Below are positions 10,518-25,886 of a stretch of 64,000 bases of DNA, in pieces. Every line of letters starts with the position of its first letter. Within the stretch, counting starts at the first letter, position 1. The translations under genes were made by a program, and so were the position numbers. Source of the stretch: Pseudoxanthomonas sp. JBR18. GTDB taxonomy: Bacteria > Pseudomonadota > Gammaproteobacteria > Xanthomonadales > Xanthomonadaceae. The notes below the pieces were generated by a model that had not been told where the DNA came from, made no database searches, and was given only the letters and a program-made list of their open reading frames with translations. Location of the stretch: assembly GCF_028198165.1 (NCBI RefSeq), contig NZ_CP116339.1, positions 4,161,001-4,225,000 on the forward strand. Reading direction: 5' to 3'.

Positions 10518-10702
10518 GGCGCATCTCCGTTAGGCTGGAAGGGTCGAGCACTCCCCCGCTTGCCCAGTCTTATCCATCCGAGTGTCGGCTCGGGCAACTG
10601 TTCGGGCGGATCAAGGGAGCTTCCGGCGTGGGCACCAGGCTACAAAGCGATCGTCAGATCCAGAGCGGAGACGGTGGCCCACGCCGGCGCTCGGCACCTA
10701 AC
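10518..10702 (-). ncRNA. candidate bridge RNA region of the IS110 element
   Basis: About 185 noncoding bases precede the transposase start. In the IS110 group this end is known to encode the bridge RNA that pairs with target and donor DNA. Conserved blocks are shared with the noncoding end of the second IS110 copy (23665-23840) although the two elements differ elsewhere, which suggests selected structure. Loop assignments were not attempted. Confidence 0.5.
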
Positions 10703-14761: not shown

Positions 14762-17700
14762 ATGAGCCAGTCTTCCTCGACCCCGCCGCTGCCGCGTGCC
14801 GGCCAGCCGCGCGCCTGGTGGCGCGCCCCGACCTCTCCTTCCGCCCTGGCCTGGCACCTGGTGCAGGCCGCGCGCGCGCATGATGGCCCGCTGCTGGCTA
14901 TCGCCGCGGACAACCACGGCGCGCACCAGATCGAATCGGACCTGCAGACCCTGCTGGGCCCCGATGCCGACCTGCCGGTGCTGCCATTCCCGGACTGGGA
15001 GACCCTGCCCTACGACCGCTTCAGCCCGCACCCGGACATCATCTCCCAGCGCCTGGCCGCGCTGAACCGCCTGCCCACGCTGGGGCGCGGCATCGTGGTG
15101 GTGCCGGTGCAGACGCTGATGCAGCGCCTGGCACCGGTGGCGCGCATGTCCGGCAGCAGCTTCGACTACCGCGTCGGCCAGAAGCTGGACTTCGACGAGG
15201 AAAAGCGCCGCCTGGAGGCCGCCAGCTACCGCAACGTGCCCCAGGTGCAGGACCCGGGCGACTTCGCCGTGCGCGGGGGCCTGCTGGACGTCTACCCGAT
15301 GGGCGCCAAGGCCCCGCTGCGCATCGAGCTGTTCGACGAAGATATCGACACCATCCGGGCCTTCGACCCGGAGACCCAGCGCTCGCTGGACAAGACCGAC
15401 GCCATCCGCATCCTGCCCGGGCGCGAGGTGCCGCTGGACCCGCGCAGCGTGGAGAAGGCGATGAACGCCCTGCGCGAGCGCTTCGACGTGGACACACGCC
15501 GCAGCAGCCTCTACCAGGATCTCAAGTCCGGCCTGGCGCCGGCCGGCGTGGAGTACTACCTGCCGCTGTTCTACGACGCCACCGCCACGCTGTTCGACTA
15601 CGTGGGCGACAAGGCGCTGCCGGTGCTGGCCGATGCCGCCCTGGCCAATGCCGATGCGTTCTGGCTGCAGGCGCAGTCGCGCTACGAGCAGCGCCGCCAC
15701 GATGTCGAGCATCCGGTGCTGCCGCCCGAAGAGCTGTACCTGGCCCCCAATCCCCTGCGCGAGCTGCTCAACCAGCGTCCGCGCGTGGAGCTGTGCGGAC
15801 CGGCCCACCCGCGCGTGGACGAGGCCAAGTCGCTGGGCGACGTGATCATGCCGCCACTGCCGCTGGCGCCGCGCGACGCGCCGGCCGGTCAGGCGCTGCG
15901 CCAGTTCCTGGACGGCTATCCGGGCGGCGTGCTGGTCGCGGCCGATTCGGCCGGCCGCCGCGAGGCGCTGATGGAAGTCATGCAGTCGGCCCAGCTCAAG
16001 CCCGAGGTGGTGCACGACTTCAAGGCCTTCCTGGACAAAGGCCCGGGCGCCAGGACCTTCGCCATTGCCGTGGCGCCGCTGGAGGACGGCTTCGCGCTGG
16101 AATCCCCGCGCATCGCGGTGCTCACCGAGCGCCAGCTGTTCCCCGAGCGCGCCAACCAGCCGCATCGGCGGCGCCGCAGCGGCAAGGAGCCCGAGGCGAT
16201 CATCCGCGACCTGGGCGAACTGTCCGAAGGCGCGCCCATCGTCCACGAGGACCACGGCGTGGGCCGCTACCGTGGCCTGATCACGCTGGAAGCCGGCGGC
16301 ATGCCGGCCGAGTACGTCGAGATCGAGTACGCCAAGGGCGACCGCCTGTACGTGCCGGTGGCGCAGCTGCACCTGATCAGCCGTTACTCCGGCGCCTCGG
16401 TGGAGACCGCGCCGCTGCATTCGCTGGGCGGCGAGGCCTGGACCAAGGCCAAGCGCCGCGCCGCCGAAAAAGTGCGCGACGTGGCCGCCGAACTGCTGGA
16501 AATCCAGGCCCGTCGCCAGGCCCGCGCCGGCCTGGCCTTGGATGTGGACCGGGCGATGTACGAGCCGTTCGCCGCGACCTTCCCGTTCGAGGAGACGCCC
16601 GACCAGCACGCGGCCATCGACGCGGTGCTGCGCGACCTGGCCAGCAGCCAGCCAATGGACCGCGTGGTCTGCGGCGACGTGGGCTTCGGCAAGACCGAGG
16701 TCGCCGTGCGCGCCGCCTTCGCCGCCGCCAGCGCCGGCAAGCAGGTCGCCGTGCTGGTGCCAACCACCCTGCTGGCCGAGCAGCACTACCGCAACTTCCG
16801 CGATCGCTTCGCCGACTGGCCGCTGCGGGTGGAGGTGCTCTCGCGCTTCAGGTCCACCAAGGAGATCAAGGCGGAACTGGCCAAGCTGGCCGACGGGCAG
16901 CTGGACGTGATCGTCGGCACCCATCGCCTGCTGCAGAGCGACGTCAAGTTCAAGGACCTGGGGCTGGTGATCGTCGACGAGGAGCAGCGCTTCGGCGTGC
17001 GCCAGAAGGAGGCGCTCAAGGCCCTGCGCGCCAACGTGCACCTGCTGACCCTGACCGCCACGCCGATCCCGCGCACGCTCAACATGGCCATGGCCGGCCT
17101 GCGCGACCTGTCGATCATCGCCACCCCGCCGGCCAACCGCATGGCGGTGCAGACCTTCGTCACCGTGTGGGACGAGGCGCTGCTGCGCGAGGCCTTCCAG
17201 CGCGAACTGGCGCGTGGCGGGCAGGTGTATTTCCTGCACAACGATGTGGAAAGCATCGGCCGCATGCAGCGCGACCTGCAGGCGCTGGTGCCGGAGGCGC
17301 GCATCGGCGTGGCCCACGGCCAGATGCCCGAGCGCGAGCTGGAACAGGTGATGCTGGGCTTCCAGAAGCAGCGCTTCAACGTGCTGGTGTGCTCGACCAT
17401 CATCGAATCGGGCATCGATATCCCGAATGCCAACACCATCATCATCAACCGCGCCGACCGCTTCGGCCTGGCCCAGCTGCACCAGCTGCGTGGCCGCGTC
17501 GGTCGCTCGCACCATCGCTCGTACGCGTATCTGGTGGCGCCTGAGACGCGGTCGCTCACCGACGATGCGCGCCGTCGCCTGGAGGCCATTTCCTCCATGG
17601 ACGAACTGGGCGCTGGCTTCATGCTGTCCACCCACGACTTGGAAATCCGCGGCGCCGGCGAGCTGCTGGGCGAAGACCAGAGCGGCCAGATGGCCGAGAT

Positions 17701-18235
17701 CGGCTTCAGCCTGTACACCGAGCTGCTGGATCGCGCGGTGCGCTCCATCCGCCGGGGGCACCTGCCCGACGTGGATGCCGGCGAGGAAGCGCGCGGGGCC
17801 GAGATCGGCCTGCATGTCCCCGCCCTGATCCCCGAGGACTACCTGCCCGACGTGCATACGCGCCTGACCCTGTACAAGCGCGTGTCCAGCGCCCGCGACG
17901 TGGACGAACTGCGCGAGCTGCAGGTGGAGATGATCGACCGTTTCGGCCTGCTGCCCGACCCGGTCAAGCACCTGTTCGCCACCGCCGAGCTCAAGCTCAC
18001 CGCCGACCAGTTGGGCATCCGCAAGCTGGAGCTGGGCGAAGCCGGCGGGCGCATCGTGTTCGAGGCCAAGCCCAAGGTCGACCCGATGACCGTCATCCAG
18101 CTGATCCAGAAGCAGCCCCGCATCTACGCCATGGACGGCCCGGACAAGCTGAAGATCAAGCTCCCCCTGCCCGAGGCCGCCGACCGCTTCAACGCCGCCA
18201 AGGGCCTGATGACGGCGCTGGCGCCGGCGGCCTGA
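14762..18235 (+). CDS. mfd: transcription-repair coupling factor
   Basis: Removes RNA polymerase stalled at DNA lesions and recruits UvrA. The 1157 residues follow the Mfd plan: a UvrB-like N-terminal module (FPDWETLPYDRFSPH), the RNA polymerase interaction domain around residues 490-560 (YVEIEYAKGDRLYVPV), a RecG-like translocase with Walker A GDVGFGKT (Lys644) and DEEQ (739-742), motif VI in QLRGRVGRS, and the C-terminal TRCF domain. The cassette array begins about 440 bp after its stop. Confidence 0.97.
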   Translation: MSQSSSTPPLPRAGQPRAWWRAPTSPSALAWHLVQAARAHDGPLLAIAADNHGAHQIESDLQTLLGPDADLPVLPFPDWETLPYDRFSPHPDIISQRLAALNRLPTLGRGIVVVPVQTLMQRLAPVARMSGSSFDYRVGQKLDFDEEKRRLEAASYRNVPQVQDPGDFAVRGGLLDVYPMGAKAPLRIELFDEDIDTIRAFDPETQRSLDKTDAIRILPGREVPLDPRSVEKAMNALRERFDVDTRRSSLYQDLKSGLAPAGVEYYLPLFYDATATLFDYVGDKALPVLADAALANADAFWLQAQSRYEQRRHDVEHPVLPPEELYLAPNPLRELLNQRPRVELCGPAHPRVDEAKSLGDVIMPPLPLAPRDAPAGQALRQFLDGYPGGVLVAADSAGRREALMEVMQSAQLKPEVVHDFKAFLDKGPGARTFAIAVAPLEDGFALESPRIAVLTERQLFPERANQPHRRRRSGKEPEAIIRDLGELSEGAPIVHEDHGVGRYRGLITLEAGGMPAEYVEIEYAKGDRLYVPVAQLHLISRYSGASVETAPLHSLGGEAWTKAKRRAAEKVRDVAAELLEIQARRQARAGLALDVDRAMYEPFAATFPFEETPDQHAAIDAVLRDLASSQPMDRVVCGDVGFGKTEVAVRAAFAAASAGKQVAVLVPTTLLAEQHYRNFRDRFADWPLRVEVLSRFRSTKEIKAELAKLADGQLDVIVGTHRLLQSDVKFKDLGLVIVDEEQRFGVRQKEALKALRANVHLLTLTATPIPRTLNMAMAGLRDLSIIATPPANRMAVQTFVTVWDEALLREAFQRELARGGQVYFLHNDVESIGRMQRDLQALVPEARIGVAHGQMPERELEQVMLGFQKQRFNVLVCSTIIESGIDIPNANTIIINRADRFGLAQLHQLRGRVGRSHHRSYAYLVAPETRSLTDDARRRLEAISSMDELGAGFMLSTHDLEIRGAGELLGEDQSGQMAEIGFSLYTELLDRAVRSIRRGHLPDVDAGEEARGAEIGLHVPALIPEDYLPDVHTRLTLYKRVSSARDVDELRELQVEMIDRFGLLPDPVKHLFATAELKLTADQLGIRKLELGEAGGRIVFEAKPKVDPMTVIQLIQKQPRIYAMDGPDKLKIKLPLPEAADRFNAAKGLMTALAPAA

Positions 18236-18288: not shown

Positions 18289-18677
18289 TCCGCACCGTCG
18301 TCACGAAGGCGCGCGCGCAAGCGAGGGGGGTCGCAACGATTGATCACGGGGCCGGACCGCGCGTACCAAAATCCTCCGGCGAAGAACCCCTGTGCCGGTT
18401 GAGACCCTCGCGGCAATCCCTGCTTTTCGGCCTAACGCCTTCCAACACCCGTCAACGTTGCGGCCCGTGACGTGGACGGAACTCCGCGCGATATCGGGGT
18501 CTGCACGCCCCGCGATGTTGTACCGGGGTCTGCTCGCCCCCTATCCCGACACGCGGCGAGCGACTCACGCGCTCAATGGCACCGCAACCACCTGATTCCT
18601 ATCGGGAACTTTGAATTGACCCGCCAGCGGCGACAGCACAGAATCCGGATAACGCTCCTTCGAGGGGTCTAATAGTA
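18289..18677. other. noncoding stretch between mfd and the cassette array
   Basis: No coding frame is convincing and there is no room for an integron integrase (about 1 kb). It has GGCCTAAC at 18429-18436, which could be a worn half of an attC site. A weak promoter-like pair, TTGACC at 18615 and CAGAAT 17 bases later, points into the array. Confidence 0.4.
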
Positions 18678-18684
18678 GTTAGGC
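18678..18684 (+). other. first cassette boundary (GTTAGGC core; attI or truncated attC)
   Basis: The first recombination core of the array is GTTAGGC after CTAATAGTA. The bases to its left do not fold like an attC site, so it is either the attI insertion point of a lost integrase or the stub of a deleted cassette. Confidence 0.55.
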
Positions 18685-18913
18685 GTGTGCCTTCTCCTTT
18701 GGCTTGGTGCTCCCGCTTGCATCAGCCCTCGCGCCGGCTGACACTTGACGGGTCACTTCATCGGACGGACAACGTGGCAAGCCCTGCATCGGATGCAGCA
18801 CAAGACAATCGGCCAATCGGCTCGCAAGCGCAGCCGGCCACCTGCGTTGGGCCGTCCTGGCCTAACAAGTCAATCAAGCCGAAACCGCTTCGCGGTTCGG
18901 CTTATTTCCAGCG
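18679..18913 (+). other. cassette 1, no convincing ORF
   Basis: A 235-bp cassette. The only long frame (from 18687) reads into the attC site and has no known relatives that I recognise. It is closely similar in sequence to cassette 2, including GTTAGGCGTGTGC at the start and GCAGCACAAGACAATC in the middle. Confidence 0.7.
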
Positions 18914-18919
18914 TTAGGC
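18860..18919 (+). repeat. attC site of cassette 1
   Basis: A 60-bp site from GCCTAAC to GTTAGGC with arms AAGCCGAAACCGC and GCGGTTCGGCTT. It is of the TCAATC/TTTCCAGC subtype. Confidence 0.93.
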
Positions 18920-19147
18920 GTGTGCTTTTTTCTTTGGCATGGCGCTCCCGCTTGCACCGGTCATTGCGCTGCTTGACACTTGGCAGGTCACCTCGACGGA
19001 TGGTCAACGTGGCAAGCCTGCATCGGACGCAGCACAAGACAATCAGCCCGTTGTCTTGCACGCTCAGCTGGCTACATGCGTTGGGCCGTCCTGGCCTAAC
19101 AAGTCAATCAAGCCGAAGCCGCTCCGCGGCTCGGCTTATTTCCAGCG
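18914..19147 (+). other. cassette 2, paralogue of cassette 1, no convincing ORF
   Basis: A 234-bp cassette that aligns end to end with cassette 1 (start, middle and attC). Differences include indels that change the reading frame, so conservation does not look like protein selection. Both may be noncoding cassettes, or decayed copies of one gene. Confidence 0.7.
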
Positions 19148-19153
19148 TTAGCC
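19094..19153 (+). repeat. attC site of cassette 2
   Basis: A 60-bp site, GCCTAAC to GTTAGCC, arms AAGCCGAAGCCGC and GCGGCTCGGCTT. The right core has one base changed (AGCC). Confidence 0.92.
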
Positions 19154-19166
19154 TTCAAGACAGACT

Positions 19167-19574
19167 ATGACGCTCTCGCAGATAGCTGACATCGCCTCAT
19201 TGATCGGCCTGCCGGTGACCTTTTGGGTTTTGTACGAGACCCATCTGATACGGCAGCATTTTTCTCTGCGCGCGCGAATCCCTGAGCTGCGAACGGCTCT
19301 TGCCGAACAGACAAAAACGCTTTTGTCCGCCATCCAATCCCGTAACTCTGGCGATGCCCACGAGAGCCTCGCCGCCATCACTGCTCTTTTAAGGAACTTA
19401 GAGAAGAAGGTGGGTGCGGCGCACAAGCAGACCGTTACCGAGGCAATCCAGAAAATAGAAGCTGTGACGAGCCAAAGGCTTTCAGATACGCGCAGCCTCC
19501 GCGGCACCTATGAGGCCACGCTCGGGATTGTGGTAACCCTTGAACAAGTCGAACGCGATCTAGCCTGGAAGTGA
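19167..19574 (+). CDS. cassette 3 first gene: membrane-anchored helical protein, unknown
   Basis: A 135-residue protein not recognised as a known family. Residues 4-24 (SQIADIASLIGLPVTFWVLY) form one hydrophobic helix; the rest is Ala/Leu/Glu-rich and predicted helical, so it is probably an inner-membrane protein with a cytosolic helical bundle. It starts 14 bp after the cassette core, and no strong ribosome site is seen. A second gene follows after three bases in the same cassette, so the two are likely made and used together. Confidence 0.75.
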   Translation: MTLSQIADIASLIGLPVTFWVLYETHLIRQHFSLRARIPELRTALAEQTKTLLSAIQSRNSGDAHESLAAITALLRNLEKKVGAAHKQTVTEAIQKIEAVTSQRLSDTRSLRGTYEATLGIVVTLEQVERDLAWK

Positions 19575-19577
19575 GCC

Positions 19578-19952
19578 ATGCCAACTGATTCGAAAGTCTC
19601 CAAGCTCATCAGCACACTTACTTGGGCAACCGTATCCGGCGAGCTCATTTGGCAGATCGTAGAGCCGCCCTCAAGTTTGCGCCAAGGCAGCGATGACATC
19701 GTTGCGTTGTACATTGAATGCAACTTCAAGAACCAGAGAATCGGTCTCTACGAACGTCGCTACAGGGATTACCAGCCAGATCTGGATTCGTGGTACTGGG
19801 CATCGGCCATCCATATGGTCTTCTTTGATCGTTTCGAGCGCGTAATCTGGGAGCACGGCGAGCCAAGCACCGCATTCTATAATCTGTTCGTTGTCGCCCG
19901 CGATTCCGCGTCTGGCATCGATGGAATCTTGAAAGGGCTAGTTGAAGGCTAA
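19578..19952 (+). CDS. cassette 3 second gene: small globular protein, unknown
   Basis: A 124-residue protein with alternating strands and aromatic motifs such as LTWATVSGELIWQIVEPPS and RIGLYERRYRDYQPDLD. I recall hypothetical proteins with RIGLYERRY, but not a function. GGAAGTGAG lies before the ATG, inside the end of the first gene. The stop overlaps the attC site, as is usual for cassette genes. It is encoded with the membrane-anchored protein at 19167. Confidence 0.78.
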   Translation: MPTDSKVSKLISTLTWATVSGELIWQIVEPPSSLRQGSDDIVALYIECNFKNQRIGLYERRYRDYQPDLDSWYWASAIHMVFFDRFERVIWEHGEPSTAFYNLFVVARDSASGIDGILKGLVEG

Positions 19953-20006
19953 CAATTCGTTCAAGCCGAACCCGCTTCGCGGGTCGGCTTAATTCAGGCG
20001 TTAGGC
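19947..20006 (+). repeat. attC site of cassette 3
   Basis: A 60-bp site from GGCTAAC to GTTAGGC with arms AAGCCGAACCCGC and GCGGGTCGGCTT. It is of the TTAATTCA subtype. Confidence 0.92.
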
Positions 20007-20023
20007 GCCAATAGGAGAGTTCT

Positions 20024-20284
20024 GTGAGACCGTATGGATCCGCAATTAGCTATGACACATCCAACCATCCGATCAGGATGATCATTGACTCGTCACGTTA
20101 CGAGGCAATCAGGCACAAGTTCGTGACGGACTATGGACTGCACCCAGTTTCAGAAGAAACTGACTCGGCAAACAACTCTGTAGTCGCAACGCTTCATGAA
20201 AGCGTTGATGAGCACACCTTCCTTCGCCATCTTCAGACCATGCCCCCTGAACAGTACGAAGAGCTAGAAATTCCGCAGGAATGA
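20024..20284 (+). CDS. cassette 4 protein, unknown (86 residues)
   Basis: The protein is not recognised. The GTG start has AGGAG six bases upstream, just after the cassette core. Soluble, mixed composition with YGLHPVSEETDSANNSVVAT and an acidic C-terminus (EQYEELEIPQE); no membrane helix or cysteine pattern. It is the only ORF of its cassette. Confidence 0.72.
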   Translation: MRPYGSAISYDTSNHPIRMIIDSSRYEAIRHKFVTDYGLHPVSEETDSANNSVVATLHESVDEHTFLRHLQTMPPEQYEELEIPQE

Positions 20285-20310
20285 TCGAGCCTTAGGCGGC
20301 ATCGTTTGGC

Positions 20311-20370
20311 GCCTGACGACTCATTCAAGCCGAAGTTGCTTCGCAACTCGGCTTAATTCAAGGATTGGAC
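20311..20370 (+). repeat. attC site of cassette 4, degenerate right core
   Basis: From GCCTGAC to ATTGGAC; the arms AAGCCGAAGTTGC and GCAACTCGGCTT are intact. The right core still fits TTRRRY, but the leading G is A. Confidence 0.85.
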
Positions 20371-20372
20371 TC

Positions 20373-20624
20373 ATGCCGGACAGAAACACGCATCACGATA
20401 GATTGCGATCCATTATTGTGCAGATCGGTCGACTGCAGACCGCTAGAGTCGACATAGTCACATCGTGCGCAGGAGTCGACCACAATAATGTTGTGGCTGT
20501 CATTGATGCGCTCGACAAGATCATTTCAATCTTAGATCAGGAAGCAGCCTGCGAGGAGCAGACCTCGAACATCCACGAAGCTCTTCATATGCCGCAGACG
20601 GGGCGAAAACCTCGTAAGATATGA
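20373..20624 (+). CDS. cassette 5 protein, unknown (83 residues)
   Basis: The protein is not recognised. The ATG lies only two bases after the attC core, so the leader is inside the recombination site. It is predicted mostly helical (LRSIIVQIGRLQTARVDIV, NVVAVIDALDKIISILDQEA), with no membrane helix and a basic C-terminus ending RKPRKI. Confidence 0.7.
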   Translation: MPDRNTHHDRLRSIIVQIGRLQTARVDIVTSCAGVDHNNVVAVIDALDKIISILDQEAACEEQTSNIHEALHMPQTGRKPRKI

Positions 20625-20625
20625 G

Positions 20626-20685
20626 TCCTAACAATTAATTCAAGCCGAAGTTGCTTCGCAACTCGACTTAATTTAGGCCTTAGGC
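20626..20685 (+). repeat. attC site of cassette 5
   Basis: From TCCTAAC to CTTAGGC, arms AAGCCGAAGTTGC and GCAACTCGACTT. Both cores carry one change. Confidence 0.87.
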
Positions 20686-21017
20686 GGTGGTGGAGCAAAT
20701 CAGTTGGTTGGTCCGGCTTCGGTCGGTTCACTGGCATGCAGGCGATCGGCTCCGCGCAGTGGTCATCACCGTTGCTGTTGCGGTAAGTTCAGTGCTTCGT
20801 CCTTGTGCGTCATTGCCGCGCCATGCTCGTTGCATTTGGCTTCGGTAGCAGCCCAGATCGGGCATCGCTGGGCAAGCTCCGTCTCGCAAGCTGGGGCATA
20901 CTCGGTCCAGACGGCGGTGCTGGGGAGCATGGTTGCACCATCCAACCTTTGCAGCCACTCACTGCCTAACAACTCATTCAAGCCGAAGTTGCTTCGCAAC
21001 TCGGCTTAATTCAAGCG
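20680..21017 (+). other. cassette 6, no confident ORF
   Basis: A 338-bp cassette. The plus-strand frame from 20704 runs into the attC site and is Ser/Cys-rich without known features. A minus-strand frame from an ATG at 20930 to about 20766 (MLPSTAVWTEYAPACETELA) has plausible composition and would be antisense to the array. Neither can be called a gene. Confidence 0.5.
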
Positions 21018-21023
21018 TTAGGC
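20964..21023 (+). repeat. attC site of cassette 6
   Basis: From GCCTAAC to GTTAGGC, arms AAGCCGAAGTTGC and GCAACTCGGCTT; a full-consensus site. Confidence 0.93.
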
Positions 21024-21037
21024 CCAAGAAGCAGCAT

Positions 21038-21412
21038 ATGGCGTCTCCTGACAGCGAGTACTTTTATCATCTGCCTTCGCTTACCTCCGACGATTTCGTC
21101 GAGCTGAGCGCCGACAGCTCTTTGCCGCTCCTACTACTTGAGTACGTTCCGACCGGCGCCGGCGTCATTTTTCCAGTCGAGTACATACATCGAGAGTTGA
21201 TTTACCGCACACCCGTACAGAAGGATGCGGTGGCATTCGGCAAAGGCAGACTTGCCGAGGGCACCGACGAGTATCAAGATGTTCGCATTCTCTTCTCGCG
21301 TCCAAACAAGACTGCGACATTTCGCGGACTAGTGCTTGAGGGGCAGGTCAAGGTCGGTCGGCTTCGGCCTAACAATTCATTCAAGCCGATGCCGCTTCGC
21401 GGCACGGCTTAA
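21038..21412 (+). CDS. cassette 7 protein, unknown (124 residues)
   Basis: The protein is not recognised. It starts MASPDSEYFYHLPSLTSDD after AAGAAG, 20 bp from the cassette core. Mixed alpha/beta composition with LLLEYVPTGAGVIFPVEYIH, no membrane helix. The last about 15 residues are encoded by the attC site itself (PNNSFKPMPLRGTA), a common feature of cassette ORFs. The frame is open further upstream, but only through the preceding attC site. Confidence 0.72.
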   Translation: MASPDSEYFYHLPSLTSDDFVELSADSSLPLLLLEYVPTGAGVIFPVEYIHRELIYRTPVQKDAVAFGKGRLAEGTDEYQDVRILFSRPNKTATFRGLVLEGQVKVGRLRPNNSFKPMPLRGTA

Positions 21413-21426
21413 TTATGGTGTTAGGC
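21367..21426 (+). repeat. attC site of cassette 7
   Basis: From GCCTAAC to GTTAGGC, arms AAGCCGATGCCGC and GCGGCACGGCTT, followed by TTAATTATG. Confidence 0.92.
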
Positions 21427-21430
21427 CTCT

Positions 21431-21841
21431 ATGCCAATCAATGTCGTAGCCAAGCAAGAGATCACGGTCGGAACCGAGCAGTTCGTGGATGGAACTGCCC
21501 CAGATGGTCCCTTCGCTGTCGTTTTCGAAGATGACGGGGACACGGGCTACCTCTACGCGCTAGATAGATCCAAGTCGGACCCGTCCATTCAAGATGCGCT
21601 GCACATCTATAACGTCGCAAATGTCACGGACGGACATCGCCCTTCGCTAGTCGAGATTGGCTGGTCACTGGACAACCTAAAGGCAATTTTGCTTATAAAT
21701 GACTATCCTCATGCCATCTTCGACTTTTCGTCAAAGCAAGGCTACTGCCGAACCGGATTTCCACCTCCTTCGGAGAACGGAGATTGGTCCGGCCACGAGT
21801 GGGACGAGTCCGCGCCCAAGCTCTTCGAGGACGAAGCCTAA
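21431..21841 (+). CDS. cassette 8 protein, DUF2251-like
   Basis: A 136-residue soluble protein. The order AVVFEDDGDTGYLYALD, IYNVANVTDGHRPSLVEIGW, YPHAIFDFSSKQGYCRTGFP and WSGHEWDESAP matches my memory of the DUF2251 family, often seen in cassettes and accessory DNA, whose function is unknown. The start is five bases after the cassette core. The stop overlaps the next attC site. Confidence 0.8.
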   Translation: MPINVVAKQEITVGTEQFVDGTAPDGPFAVVFEDDGDTGYLYALDRSKSDPSIQDALHIYNVANVTDGHRPSLVEIGWSLDNLKAILLINDYPHAIFDFSSKQGYCRTGFPPPSENGDWSGHEWDESAPKLFEDEA

Positions 21842-21895
21842 CAAGTCAATCAAGCCGAAGCCGCTTTGTGGCTCGGCTTATTTCCAGCGTTAGGG
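21836..21895 (+). repeat. attC site of cassette 8
   Basis: From GCCTAAC to GTTAGGG, arms AAGCCGAAGCCGC and GTGGCTCGGCTT. It is of the TCAATC/TTTCCAGC subtype, like cassettes 1 and 2. Confidence 0.9.
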
Positions 21896-21926
21896 CTCAC
21901 AACATGCACTACAGTGACGGCCACGA

Positions 21927-22180
21927 AGTGAATCGCCCAGGGTTTCGTAGACACCTACGAGCCGCTTGATTGCTGCTTCTCGAACTGCACCGGTGACAGT
22001 CTGTAGGACATCTGAGTTTGGTCAAGGACATCTGCTCTGGCCTCAGCACCGTGATTGTGGACACTTCGCTTAGTCCGGTCGCGCTCGAACAATTGAAAGA
22101 AGCACTCCGCCGTCTCATATGCGGGGAAATTTTTTCCGAAGTACTCGACGACAGTGGCGGTGCTGCGGCTTTTCCCCTTC
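21927..22180 (-). pseudogene. IS3-family end with transposase 3' remnant
   Basis: The plus strand starts TGAATCGCCCAGGGTTTCG, a terminal sequence typical of IS3-type elements. Reading leftward from about 22180, the minus strand encodes AECFFQLFERDRTKR and AEARADVLD, then jumps to YRLSPVQFEKQQ, the known C-terminal parts of IS3 OrfB with a stretch missing between them. The rest of the element is absent. It interrupts the cassette that begins at 21890. Confidence 0.7.
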
Positions 22181-22338
22181 CGCGTCATTAACCTCGGGCA
22201 GCTTGGTGCAAGCGTTGCGGATGGCATGCGCTCGACCTTCTGTCGGCCGCATCACACAATCAATCTCAACACGGTTGACAAGGCCGCCGAGTGACCGCAA
22301 TCTGCAGTCAAGGAGCGTAGAAACTCCTCTAGTAGCGG

Positions 22339-22368
22339 TACCCACCTCCGTCAAACCGGTGGGTTTTT
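22339..22368 (+). terminator. intrinsic terminator at the head of the XAC0095-like leader
   Basis: Arms ACCCACC and GGTGGGT are followed by six T. It may stop transcription from the array or act within the leader of the downstream gene. Confidence 0.75.
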
Positions 22369-22395
22369 TGTGCCCGCATTCTGCAGGGACAAACC

Positions 22396-22509
22396 GACGC
22401 GATGCCTGCGTCGGGAGGGCGGCTAATACAACACCCGCAAGGGGAATACGCCCGCCGACTACTAGCGGTTTCTAACCTCCCGACTTCCCGTCCGCCGTTC
22501 GGCGGGCGG
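22396..22509 (+). ncRNA. structured leader upstream of the XAC0095-like gene
   Basis: Three nested or adjacent stems are visible: GACGC/GCGTC (22396-22412), a perfect 9-bp stem GTCGGGAGG/CCTCCCGAC (22410-22418 with 22476-22484) enclosing GC-rich inner pairs, and CCGTCCGCC/GGCGGGCGG with loop GTTC (22488-22509). The last stem ends 15 bases before the ribosome site AAGGAG. The arrangement suggests a cis-acting RNA. I recall comparable leaders before unrelated small genes in Pseudomonas, but cannot name the motif. Confidence 0.45.
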
Positions 22510-22537
22510 TCACTTCATGGTGAAAGGAGAAGCGGCG

Positions 22538-23311
22538 ATGACGGAACAGACGTTTGACGATCGAGGTGCGGGGGACTTCCTGCGTGAGAACAGCGGGCTG
22601 TTGCTGAAGCAGGTGAGGAATCACATCCACTTCCTGGCGCGGCGGGCCCAGCCAAGCGCTGCGGACGGGACGAAGGACGGGGCTGCGGCCGTGGGCATGG
22701 CCGAGGTGATGTCCTGCCTGGACCAGTTGTCCGAGCAGCTGGACTTGTTGATCAAGGACGCGAACTTTTACGGACGTGCGGGCCACCCGCTGATGGTGGA
22801 TATTGCCGATGTCACTGCGGCGCACAGTGACGCTTCCGGTGAAGAAGACGAGGAAGAAGAAGAGGAAGAAGAAGCGTCATCGTCCGAGCAACAGGAGGAT
22901 GAAGAAGGCGATAACGTCCCCGCATCCCCTGCCCGCCACGGCACCTACGCGCAGCGGCTGGTCTTCGGCGTGACGCTGGCGCAGATCGACACGCTCCAAC
23001 AGCTGATGGTGGGCATCAAGGCCTACGCAGATGCGGTGTTCGCCGATGGCATGGCGGACTTCGCACCCGGCACATTGGCGGCGCTGGGTGGCACGATCTT
23101 CGACCGGGCCAATGATGTGTGTGAGATCCTCAGGGAGATCAATGCGCAGTCGCTGCAGCAGGGTCGTTCGGGCTTTGCGGTGGAAGAGACCGCGTCCGGG
23201 TACCTCGTCCAGGGGCGGGCCGGAAGAAGCCACGGATCGCACAGCACGCCTGCATGGGAGGCGCACGTGGGGACCGGGGCGCCGCACGCCGATCGGCGGC
23301 ATCTGCACTGA
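22538..23311 (+). CDS. XAC0095-like protein with acidic linker
   Basis: A protein of 257 residues. The N-terminal part (DFLRENSGLLLKQVRNHIHF, then VGMAEVMSCLDQLSEQLDLL) resembles the small XAC0095 family of Xanthomonads, whose role is unknown. A second helical unit (LVFGVTLAQIDTLQQLMVGI) follows a run of about 20 Glu/Asp/Ser residues (around 105-125). ATG at 22538 follows AAGGAG; an upstream in-frame ATG at 22517 is less likely. The gene has its own leader and a terminator-like stem behind it, and higher GC than the cassettes, so it is an independent unit inside the array and not a cassette. Confidence 0.6.
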   Translation: MTEQTFDDRGAGDFLRENSGLLLKQVRNHIHFLARRAQPSAADGTKDGAAAVGMAEVMSCLDQLSEQLDLLIKDANFYGRAGHPLMVDIADVTAAHSDASGEEDEEEEEEEEASSSEQQEDEEGDNVPASPARHGTYAQRLVFGVTLAQIDTLQQLMVGIKAYADAVFADGMADFAPGTLAALGGTIFDRANDVCEILREINAQSLQQGRSGFAVEETASGYLVQGRAGRSHGSHSTPAWEAHVGTGAPHADRRHLH

Positions 23312-23350
23312 GCGAGCGATGATCTGGCGCAACCGATCCCGTCGGTGACG

Positions 23351-23390
23351 CGAACCAGCGGGCCGTCTCTGGGACGCCGCTGGTTCGTTT
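23351..23390 (+). terminator. terminator-like stem after the XAC0095-like gene
   Basis: Arms CGAACCAGCGG and CCGCTGGTTCG (11 bp, perfect) enclose about 15 bases and are followed by TTT, 40 bp after the stop codon. Confidence 0.6.
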
Positions 23391-23404
23391 GCAGTGCTGA
23401 GGTG

Positions 23405-23840
23405 AGCTTCAGTTCCTTCTTTGTCCGCTGGCCAGGTGCGTCGCCGCTCCTGGCTTGGCGCCGACGCTTGCAGGAGCCAACCGCCTTGTAGCCGCCTGTC
23501 GCCTCCACCACAACGCGGCCTGATCAAGCTTTGCGACCAAGCGGATCAGCTTGCGCATGCCCGCTGCCGAACTGGCGATTTGCACCGCCCCAGGCTTGGC
23601 CTGCATGGCCACATCCAGCGCCGCCTTGCCCACGTCGATCCCTACTGCGGTCATGCCCGTTCTCCGATAGAGTTGGCCGGTCGAGAGCATCGCGCCTGAG
23701 GCCCACGCTTATCAGTTCGAGGGTGACCTCGGTCAACTGTCCGGGCGCAGGGCGCGAGCACCGGCATGCGGCCCCTGCTGAGTTACGGTGCTGCTACACC
23801 GAGGCGTTATCGGGCGCGCATGCCGGGCTCTCGGCGCCTA
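23405..23840 (-). pseudogene. truncated IS110-family element
   Basis: The minus strand from 23654 encodes MTAVGIDVGKAALDVAMQAK and continues to LDQAAL. The expected VVEATGGY is found only after a frameshift and the sequence stops soon after, so less than a third of the transposase remains. The noncoding end upstream (23655-23840) shares blocks with the intact IS110 at 9600-10702. It ends about 28 bp before an isolated attC right core. Confidence 0.8.
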
Positions 23841-23867
23841 CAGTAGGGAAACTGGAAGACATAAGGT

Positions 23868-23874
23868 GTTAGGC
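23868..23874 (+). other. isolated attC right core (GTTAGGC) beside the IS110 remnant
   Basis: GGTGTTAGGC is the normal right end of an attC site (compare 24274-24282), but the arms to its left are replaced by other sequence. The attC site was cut by insertion or deletion. It marks the left boundary of the next cassette. Confidence 0.75.
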
Positions 23875-23878
23875 GGTC

Positions 23879-24228
23879 ATGGAAGAACTCAGCGGCTACG
23901 AGCATGAAGCAATCGCAACAATCGCGCTTTCGGACGCCCAACGAGACATAGTTCTCGCTCAGCTGGCTAAAGCTACCTGCATCTCGCGGGATTACACAGG
24001 CGTTGGCCTATATACACAGAACTTTACGTAGACCCGTCTGCTCCAAAGCTAGATGAGGCTCGCTGGAAGATCGAGGACATGCCCAAAGGGCACGCTTACC
24101 ATCCGGACCTGCCTGCTGGTGCCGGACTTATTCTATGGGTCAAGGACGGCTACATTAGCTGCCTTGAGTCGTACACGTATGAGGGTAGCTGGCCGCAGGA
24201 CGAGTCACTGTTCCGGCTAGCCGCCTAA
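23879..24228 (+). pseudogene. frameshifted cassette gene, unknown family
   Basis: The ATG at 23879 opens MEELSGYEHEAIATIALSD and reads to YTGVGLYTQNFT, then stop at 24029. In another frame from about 24019 the protein goes on as ELYVDPSAPKLDEARW, then GAGLILWVKDGYISCLESYT, and ends DESLFRLAA at 24228, overlapping the attC site. One small indel near 24010-24020 would join them into a protein of about 116 residues. Codon use and position show one broken gene, not two. The function is not recognised. Confidence 0.8.
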
Positions 24229-24282
24229 CAATTCATTCAAGCCGACGCCGCTTCGCGGCTCGGCTTAATTCAGGTGTTAGGC
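24223..24282 (+). repeat. attC site after the frameshifted cassette
   Basis: From GCCTAAC to GTTAGGC, arms AAGCCGACGCCGC and GCGGCTCGGCTT. It is of the TTAATTCA subtype. Confidence 0.93.
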
Positions 24283-24295
24283 CTCAGGGGGAACT

Positions 24296-25153
24296 ATGTC
24301 GAGCGACCAACTTCCAGACGACCGCGTGATCGTCGAGCGCCTTAGACAAGAACTTGCCAAGACGGAGCCCTCAAGGCGACGGCGAATAATTGAGAAGTTC
24401 GTACTCGCCGCACTCGGAAGTATTCCTTGGATTGGAGGATTCCTCAGCGCCGCTTACGACTACAAGGCCGAGGAAGACACACTCCGGCAGGATTCGCTCC
24501 AAACACAGTGGCTTGAGGAGCACCAAGGAAAGATCGCCTCACTCCGAGAGACCCTAGCAGAGATAGAGAGGCGCTTTGAAGCGCTTGGCAGCGCGATCGA
24601 AGACCGGATTCAGAGCGAAGAGTATCTAGGCCTCGTAAGAAAGGCGTTCCGCGCTTGGGATGAGGCTGACACGCAGGAGAAGAGACGGTACATAGCCAAT
24701 CTCGTCACGAACGCCGCTGGCACGCGTGTCTGCTCCGACGACGTACTGCGGCTGTTTATTGACTGGTTAGAGCTCTACCACGAGGCTCATTTCGCCGTTA
24801 TCCGTGAGATCTATCAGTACCCGGGCTCTACCCGTTTCGACATCTGGTCAGCCATCTATGGCGACACGCCACGAGAAGACTCTGCGGAGGCAGATCTCTA
24901 CAAGCTACTCATTCGAGATCTAAGCACTGGCGGAGTGATCCGACAGGAGCGCGACACAAATTCCATGGGGCAGTTCATGCGCAAAAGACCGCAGAAAACT
25001 GGTGCTCGCAGAGTTGCGCCAAGCACGATGGAATCCGCGTTCGAAGATACCAAGCCGTACGTACTGACTGAGATGGGGAAGCAGTTCGTCCACTACACCA
25101 TGAACGAGGTGGTCACTCGCATTGAGAGCGACAGTGATGGGCCGCTGGCCTAA
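24296..25153 (+). CDS. cassette protein with hydrophobic N-terminal segment and coiled coil (285 residues)
   Basis: This is the largest cassette product here and is not recognised as a named family. A basic stretch (PSRRRRIIEKF) precedes a short hydrophobic segment FVLAALGSIPWIGGFLSAA (about residues 36-54). A predicted coiled coil (70-105) and a helical, partly winged-helix-like C-terminal half (AVIREIYQYPGSTRFDIWSA, GGVIRQERD) follow. GGGGGA precedes the ATG. The layout, a possible membrane-inserting segment plus a soluble sensor-like domain, is seen in some phage-defence effectors; that is inference only. The stop overlaps a cut attC site. Confidence 0.8.
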   Translation: MSSDQLPDDRVIVERLRQELAKTEPSRRRRIIEKFVLAALGSIPWIGGFLSAAYDYKAEEDTLRQDSLQTQWLEEHQGKIASLRETLAEIERRFEALGSAIEDRIQSEEYLGLVRKAFRAWDEADTQEKRRYIANLVTNAAGTRVCSDDVLRLFIDWLELYHEAHFAVIREIYQYPGSTRFDIWSAIYGDTPREDSAEADLYKLLIRDLSTGGVIRQERDTNSMGQFMRKRPQKTGARRVAPSTMESAFEDTKPYVLTEMGKQFVHYTMNEVVTRIESDSDGPLA

Positions 25154-25163
25154 CAATTCATTC
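25148..25163 (+). repeat. truncated attC (left 16 bp), cut by an IS3-type end
   Basis: GCCTAACAATTCATTC matches the left end of the TTAATTCA subtype and is followed at once by TGAATCGCCC, the IS3-type terminus. The right part of the site is missing. Confidence 0.8.
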
Positions 25164-25290
25164 TGAATCGCCCAGCGCTTCGTAGACACCCACGAGCCAC
25201 TTGATTGCTGCTTCTCGACTGTAGCGGTGACAGTCCTCCGCCGTACCGTGTCGGTGCTTGGGGCTGTAGGACACCTCATTGAGTTCTTCG
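25164..25290 (-). pseudogene. second IS3-family end remnant
   Basis: TGAATCGCCCAGCGCTTCG and the following about 70 bp match the end at 21927 with few changes (both contain TTGATTGCTGCTTCTCGA and GGTGACAGT). Minus-strand frames give broken pieces such as SYSPKHRHGTAED, the IS3 OrfB tail. Nothing else of the element remains. Confidence 0.65.
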
Positions 25291-25401
25291 GTGGCGGCGC
25301 GGGTGGCGGTTCTCGCCCGGTAGGCAAGCCTCGCGGCTGGCTGTCAAAGTTCTTCTTCAGCGCAAAAACGTACCGATTGTCTGGCCCGGTTAACGGGTGA
25401 G

Positions 25402-25461
25402 GGTTAGCAGTTCATTCAACCCCAACCCGCTTCGTGGGTCGACTCCATTCACGCGTTAAGC
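25402..25461 (+). repeat. last complete attC site, degenerate left core
   Basis: From GGTTAGC to GTTAAGC with arms AACCCCAACCCGC and GTGGGTCGACTC. Both cores and arms carry several changes, so the site is probably old. Confidence 0.75.
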
Positions 25462-25475
25462 TACTGGATGCAGAA

Positions 25476-25886
25476 ATGTCGCAAGCGCTGATTCTGGCCA
25501 TGGCCGCGCATGTCGCGCTCGCGGCATTGCTCTATGTGCTTCTCACCGTTGCTCGCGCCCCGGCGGTGTGGGGCGTCGGGAAGCGCGCCGATGGGTCGAA
25601 CCCGTTCGCGGAATTCGAGCCGCGCATCGGCGCCAGCCTTTCCAACCAATTCGAATGGCCGGTGCTGTTCTACGCCGCATGCATCCTCTTGCTGCTCGGG
25701 ACTCCCGGGCCGGCCGCCGTCGGCTTGGCGTGGCTGTTTGTCGCGGGCCGCGTCCTCCACAGCGTGGTGCACATTGGCACGCGGAACGTCCGGCTCCGGG
25801 GTGTCGTGTTCACCCTGAACTTCCTGGCCGTGTTGGGTCTTTGGGTGCTTGTAGTTGCACGCGCAGCGTCCGAGCCCCTGGCCTAA
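25476..25886 (+). CDS. MAPEG-family membrane protein
   Basis: A 136-residue protein with four predicted membrane helices. NPFAEFEPRIGASLSNQFEWPVLFYAA and VAGRVLHSVVHIGTRNVRLRG are typical of bacterial MAPEG proteins (glutathione-related membrane enzymes in the wider family). ATG at 25476 is preferred; the frame opens earlier inside the attC site. The stop is in GGCCTAACAA, which looks like the left core of an attC, so this gene may be the last, eroded cassette. Its GC is higher than that of the other cassettes. Confidence 0.82.
   Translation: MSQALILAMAAHVALAALLYVLLTVARAPAVWGVGKRADGSNPFAEFEPRIGASLSNQFEWPVLFYAACILLLLGTPGPAAVGLAWLFVAGRVLHSVVHIGTRNVRLRGVVFTLNFLAVLGLWVLVVARAASEPLA

Follow-up and report, generated by a model that had tools for sequence, protein, structure and literature searches.

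An attI-headed cassette array beside mfd in Pseudoxanthomonas sp. JBR18 is probably a satellite platform of a distant integron integrase

In the genome of Pseudoxanthomonas sp. JBR18, a stretch of 64,000 nucleotides (the window; positions 4161001-4225000 within a single 4.597-Mb contig) carries an array of integron cassettes bounded by mfd on the left and a MAPEG gene on the right. This array, termed array E, is probably a satellite integron platform, by which we mean a putative cassette promoter (Pc), an attI site and cassettes that have lost their own integrase gene, intI, and that could be loaded in trans. Under this proposal, a complete integron at E would have lost its intI while Pc, attI and cassettes stayed in place; the single integron integrase (IntI) of the genome, encoded 2.49 Mb away along the contig, would serve several attI platforms in trans; and cassettes excised from one array would insert into another, at attI or attC. 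Below, positions are those of the window unless they are stated to be contig positions, and G and L numbers denote genomes and loci, respectively.

The array itself had been recognized in a sequence-only reading of this DNA, and we confirmed it by four approaches, namely, repeat family, pattern, folding and covariance model. First, ten attC sites (18860-25461) form one direct-repeat family with ten copies. Second, the attC pattern gave 58 matches genome-wide, against none for the reversed pattern. Third, bottom-strand folding was stronger than in shuffled sequences for nine sites (z from -6.34 to -2.80), the weakest value, -1.20, being that of the site at 25402-25461; the site at 20311-20370 has an altered core, and its outer arms are unpaired in the fold. 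Fourth, covariance scores range from 56.6 to 88.3 bits and reach at least 76 bits in eight of the ten, scores that are not independent, as the model was trained on 52 attC of the same genome with these ten among them. The cut attC described in that reading and a lone core were found as well, at 25147-25163 and near 23866, and the short distance it gave between mfd and the first core was measured as 442 bp.

With ten clustered attC and the sole intI of the genome at 1.692 Mb, the array corresponds to what is called a CALIN (a cluster of attC sites lacking an integron integrase), for which at least two clustered attC and no adjoining integrase suffice. A search of the genome with the TIGR02249 profile gave a single match above its cut-off, at contig positions 1692089-1693030 (484 bits), in agreement with the earlier statements that no intI adjoins the array and that the integrase is either lost or far away: it is absent locally, and an intact gene lies at a distance. 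This gene encodes 336 amino acids with both integrase domains, and the array behind it has the same type of attC. Residues R152, H283, R286 and Y318, which we take to be catalytic by reference to IntI1, are all in place. At E values up to 0.001, the covariance model detected 79 attC in the genome, every one of them within five clusters, arrays A to E (Table 1), although models built from this genome may let other attC types escape. The Pc-attI pattern likewise occurs five times, once per array, against a single intI in the genome. Thus, E opens with attI and lacks intI, while the chromosome carries an intact copy, an arrangement expected of a satellite platform. These data also revise the earlier picture of a relic of a chromosomal integron. 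A former platform remains likely; yet E is one of five attI-headed arrays in a genome that has kept its intI, and uniformity of attC does not mark an isolated relic, since all five arrays have the same attC type. Indeed, the finding that was named in that reading as speaking against it is the one made here: at another place, the genome holds an intact intI together with an attI and attC of this family.

What distinguishes E from an ordinary CALIN, which it resembles in having attC without an adjoining intI, is that it opens with Pc and attI. No clear attI had been noticed before, whereas we found a Pc-attI sequence at 18616-18684. Directly upstream of the first core, arrays A, B, C and E resemble one another, the leaders of E and C being 84% identical over 384 bp, and attI-D resembles attI-B. 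The same layout accompanies intI in relatives: judged by eye, a short C/G stem plus core lies beside intI in 27 of 30 intI loci, that of JBR18 included (it was not seen at L033, L053 and L056), and in most of these 27 a promoter-like TTGAC-17-AATACT or CAGAAT precedes it. At the level of sequence layout, therefore, E has the attI and Pc ahead of its first cassette that a complete integron has, while it lacks the intI adjoining attI. Its Pc is presumably active. The leader was also considered as a widespread mobile repeat, a candidate that we rejected, as a search of 61 genomes, including that of JBR18, gave only three matches in G000, the third of 27 bp, and 25 bp of G035.

The start of the array bears as well on a different origin, in which attC would have recombined with an attG-like site present by chance near mfd, so that a CALIN formed there without any platform. 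Such an insertion likewise puts a cassette array far from intI. However, attG sites are not known to have an attI-type promoter, stem-loop or leader, and E opens with a promoter, stem-loop and core of the type found on the intI side. Moreover, its leader is common to array C over those 384 bp, and an attI leader lies at the same place in G035. Hence, although integron integrases can take this route in E. coli (cited in PMC12444791), we consider it very improbable here.

Comparison of the mfd site in relatives agrees with a platform. Relatives have Mfd proteins that are 75-97% identical over the C-terminal 300 amino acids; of 36 relatives with an mfd match, 29 were compared, over the 1.5 kb downstream. 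Among these 29, mfd is followed by nine or more strong attC in G035 and by relics of attC in G004 and G017. In G035, the attI leader that lies after mfd is almost the same as that of the genome's own intI (100% in the Pc part, 92% in the core), and so a platform occupies the mfd site in two species or more. Searched at E 1e-60, the two genomes nearest by Mfd (G004 and G017, 97%) gave no match to intI. Scoring 150 candidates per genome, we found 3, 7 and 3 attC matches in total in the intI-less genomes G004, G017 and G009, versus 44 and 27 in the intI-bearing genomes G007 and G010, a few of these being a site matched again on its other strand. For these five genomes only, such counts fit the notion that arrays would need IntI.

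Cassettes of arrays A, B and C recur, either identical or nearly so. Exact blocks are shared between A5 and C3 (372 bp), A11 and B16 (351 bp), and A2 and A19 (468 bp), and a single mismatch in 240 separates B17 from A1, which lies at attI-A. Recent exchange is thus seen for A and C, and from these identities it is apparent that both orphan platforms take part in cassette movement; for E, participation is presumed. Across the family, we counted as shared any stretch of 150 bp or more with an identity of 95% or higher and kept 84 of 86 arrays, two having yielded less than 150 bp. Stretches were shared by 12 of 57 within-genome pairs versus three of 3429 between-genome pairs. One within-genome case, in G299, is a 1.1-kb insertion-sequence transposase gene rather than a cassette, and its removal leaves 11 of 57 pairs, in eight genomes. 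Four of these 11 belong to JBR18, including C-E at only 95%. The pairs are not independent.

Homologous recombination among arrays, or duplication of segments between them, could produce the same sharing without IntI acting in trans. Repeated 235-bp cassettes and similar attC would supply the homology, and four of the 11 stretches (G001, G024, G242 and G266) reach contig ends or masked bases, in addition to the G299 transposase gene. In JBR18, however, the edges of the exact blocks all lie at most 4 bases from a GTTA core, and the neighboring cassettes differ, as site-specific movement predicts. We therefore regard either process as an unlikely source of the sharing.

More weight has to be given to the possibility that E is a dead relic, namely, a formerly complete integron whose intI was lost long ago, which has since only decayed and whose attI is a fossil unused by any IntI. 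Several observations favor this possibility or weigh against a loadable platform. First, E is partly eroded: one core is altered (20311), the far-end attC are cut and degenerate, an IS110 relic lies at an attC, as in array C, and 2.3 kb are free of attC. Second, no cassette of E occurs elsewhere at 99% identity, the best match being 95%; as far as sequence identity can tell, E is outside recent cassette traffic and shows old exchange only. Third, the nearest relatives, G004 and G017, both intI-less, retain only attC relics after mfd. Fourth, no match to intI was obtained in four genomes that hold two or three attI, and so attI can survive as a fossil. Fifth, array pairs share cassettes in none of six cases in genomes without intI, as compared with 12 of 51 in the others (before removal of G299), although this difference is not significant (p 0.32). 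Sixth, no IntI remnant was found in the leader of E. Finally, when attI sites are ranked by their 38-nt core, the intI-side attI comes only 8th, 4th and 6th of 23 for A, C and E, respectively, and first for nine of 22 orphans, two of them ties; the idea of a uniform attI inside each genome thus holds only in part. Given these low ranks, recognition by this IntI is something that we infer, and recombination of attI-E by it is to be read in that sense.

On the other side, attI-E has kept its Pc, stem and core, eight of the ten attC of the array still score high, an intact IntI exists, and the orphan platforms A and C swapped cassettes recently. Taken together, a dead relic is possible yet the less probable explanation, and we favor a satellite platform, one that looks old and partly eroded, that was presumably once a complete integron and that may still be in use.

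To place this array in the context of the family, the Pc-attI pattern was searched in 297 genomes and found in 82 of them, the reversed pattern giving one match in all. Positions of intI were assigned through TIGR02249, partial matches included, in 80 of the 82, leaving out G319 and G335. These 80 genomes hold 145 sites, rather than the 147 obtained with those two; an overlapping row in G207 had been merged beforehand. An intI match lies no more than 2.6 kb away from 69 of these sites, and the other 76 are orphans. Counting G319 and G335 would give 78 orphans, although the G335 site is probably beside intI, because its sequence is also present ahead of intI in L237. At least two sites are present in 43 genomes, with exactly one intI match in 34 of them, none in four and several in five. 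The pattern overlooks variants such as the site after mfd in G035 and Xanthomonas-type stems.

We retrieved 60 of the 72 orphan sites outside JBR18, of which 52 head attC, with 268 attC downstream and 12 upstream. Ten of these 12 are in L117 (G073:C1:6717-14217), where an intI-less attI sits inside an array, with ten attC before it and 20 after. Seven of the eight orphans without attC have less than 1.2 kb to the contig end. Since about 2.5 kb of upstream sequence was available at all 60, the missing intI is not due to contig ends. Fragments of intI occur at eight of the 60, seven from the 5' part, two of those weak (L091 and L127), and upstream of attI-A lies a piece resembling the start of intI (local alignment score 26.0, against 17.5 as the best of 500 shuffles). 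Hence, at least some platforms are integrons minus intI. The multiple platforms may have arisen by duplication of whole integrons followed by loss of intI, or by transfer. We consider it an even bet that Xanthomonadaceae have a distributed integron, with one IntI, several attI platforms each with its Pc, cassettes circulating among them, and many functional arrays without intI.

The stem of attI may itself be informative. A stem with four pairs or more ahead of the core is present at 34 of the 41 named intI loci, at 58 of the 60 orphan loci and at all five sites of JBR18. These counts come from a generous search taking the best of several positions, with no shuffle control; 41 of 45 intI loci were used (L196, L259, L260 and L262, without such a layout, were omitted), and the orphans had been preselected by a pattern containing part of the 3' arm. 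Among genera, stems vary on both arms (CCCC/GGGG, CCGC/GCGG, CCTC/GAGG), which suggests selection on pairing, perhaps within the Pc transcript or as an IntI-bound repeat.

Table 1. Features of array E, in window positions, and the attC arrays of the JBR18 chromosome (A to D in contig positions).
Feature	Coordinates	Strand	Evidence or remark
mfd, left flank	14762..18235	+	ORF (open reading frame), 1157 aa
Leader common to array C	18300..18683	+	84% identity to L021:2632-3017
Predicted Pc-like promoter TTGACC-17-CAGAAT	18616..18644	+	pattern match, contig 4179616-4179681; layout as before intI in relatives
attI stem-loop GCTCCT-TCG-AGGGGT	18654..18668	+	stem search
attI core GTTAGGC, first cassette begins	18678..18684	+	sequence
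E1, repeated 235-bp ORF-less cassette	18678..18912	+	attC 18860-18919
E2, copy 2 of repeated cassette	18913..19147	+	attC 19094-19153
E3, ORFs 19167-19574 and 19578-19952	19148..20000	+	attC 19947-20006
E4, ORF 20024-20284	20001..20364	+	attC 20311-20370, core altered
E5, ORF 20373-20624	20365..20679	+	attC 20626-20685
E6, without clear ORF	20680..21017	+	attC 20964-21023
E7, ORF 21038-21412	21018..21420	+	attC 21367-21426
E8, DUF2251 protein 21431-21841	21421..21889	+	PF10008, E 2.1e-35; attC 21836-21895
sRNA-Xcc1	22410..22492	+	RF02221, 78.8 bits
XAC0095-family protein	22541..23311	+	NF047335, E 2.2e-10
IS110-family relic (ORF start 23690 on -) and sX15 RNA 23680-23840	23412..23840		NF033542, E 0.0013, under its cut-off; RF02234
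attC ending eroded stretch 21890-24222	24223..24282	+	86.5 bits; z -6.34
ORF 24296-25153 and cut attC 25147-25163	24296..25163	+	ORF list, attC search
Last attC, degenerate	25402..25461	+	56.6 bits; z -1.20
MAPEG gene, right flank	25476..25886	+	PF01124, E 5.1e-19
Array A	1312069-1323239	+	attC cluster; no adjoining intI
Array B, with intI	1693434-1702587	+	attC cluster
Array C	1877631-1884996	+	attC cluster; no adjoining intI
Array D	1754146-1755420	-	attC cluster
Array E	window array	+	attC cluster

Profile searches of the cassette proteins agree with the earlier remark that the cargo is mostly of unknown function, and the two ORFs of E3 gave no family above cut-off. The suggestion of phage-defense cargo was not upheld, none of nine proteins (eight from cassettes plus the MAPEG flank) matching PADLOC at E 0.05. 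The 235-bp ORF-less cassette has 17 copies across the four plus-strand arrays (L016, L019 and L021 included); of the other genomes of the genus that were searched, G007 has a partial copy and the remaining 36 have none. Neither a gene nor a promoter readily accounts for it, given single-base variation in length and the loss in the 16 other copies of the promoter-like TTGACG of the window copy. The MAPEG gene was ruled out as a last cassette: it is also found downstream of mfd, past other genes, in G007 and G009, whose Mfd C-termini are 93% and 94% identical, and no attC was found there. A repeat at 21929 and 25164 resembles an IS3-family end and adds to the aged look of E. The contig starts inside a phage gene.

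Within the eroded stretch, sRNA-Xcc1 ends 48 bp before the XAC0095-family gene, and this segment (22190-23388) is 86% identical to L016:14905-16099 in the intI array, so that the RNA could be a leader of the gene. In Xanthomonas, sRNA-Xcc1 is reported upstream of symE (PMC12444791).

The IS110-family relic is followed by the lone GTTAGGC core, and positions 23484-23875 are 90% identical to a copy in array C. There, an IS110-family element (L021 3631-4840) has its ends inside an attC, directly ahead of the core; elements of the IS1111 group, which it resembles in this, target attC. The sX15 RNA has seven copies in the genome (L294-L300; in the window at 10543-10700 and 23680-23840), all beside IS110-family genes and with the Rfam strand opposite to the gene. 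Five lie 25 nt from identical full-length transposase genes, the copy in array C lies beside a 45%-identical one, and the remaining one, in the window, beside the relic. Bridge RNAs are known from the non-coding end of IS110-type elements, and sX15 may be an RNA of this kind of end; no paper naming sX15 together with IS110 was found in the open-access literature.

Among known systems, the sedentary chromosomal integrons of Xanthomonas come close to that of JBR18, belonging to the same family, with an intI array plus distant arrays and sRNA-Xcc1 in cassettes. In a 2025 survey of Xanthomonas, intI lies at ilvD and CALINs, present in about half of the genomes and mobilizable in trans, at other conserved loci; the portion seen does not mention attI at the distant arrays, unlike E (PMC12444791). 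Delta-attI cassettes of class 1 and 2 integrons, in which, according to the part consulted, a piece of attI substitutes for attC inside an array, are alike in having a displaced attI, whereas in E a whole attI heads a separate array (PMC12901181). Cassette arrays without intI have been proposed to be degraded integrons, as far as the accessible text goes (PMC9024848), and we found no description of attI-headed CALINs in the open-access literature. Common software ignores these attI sites, which a simple pattern detects.

If many arrays of the family are attI platforms loaded in trans, the integron is not one locus. A cell would then have several first positions, each behind a promoter and served by one integrase, which would alter how cassette expression and shuffling are counted, and would give a reason for the conserved sites of such arrays in Xanthomonas.

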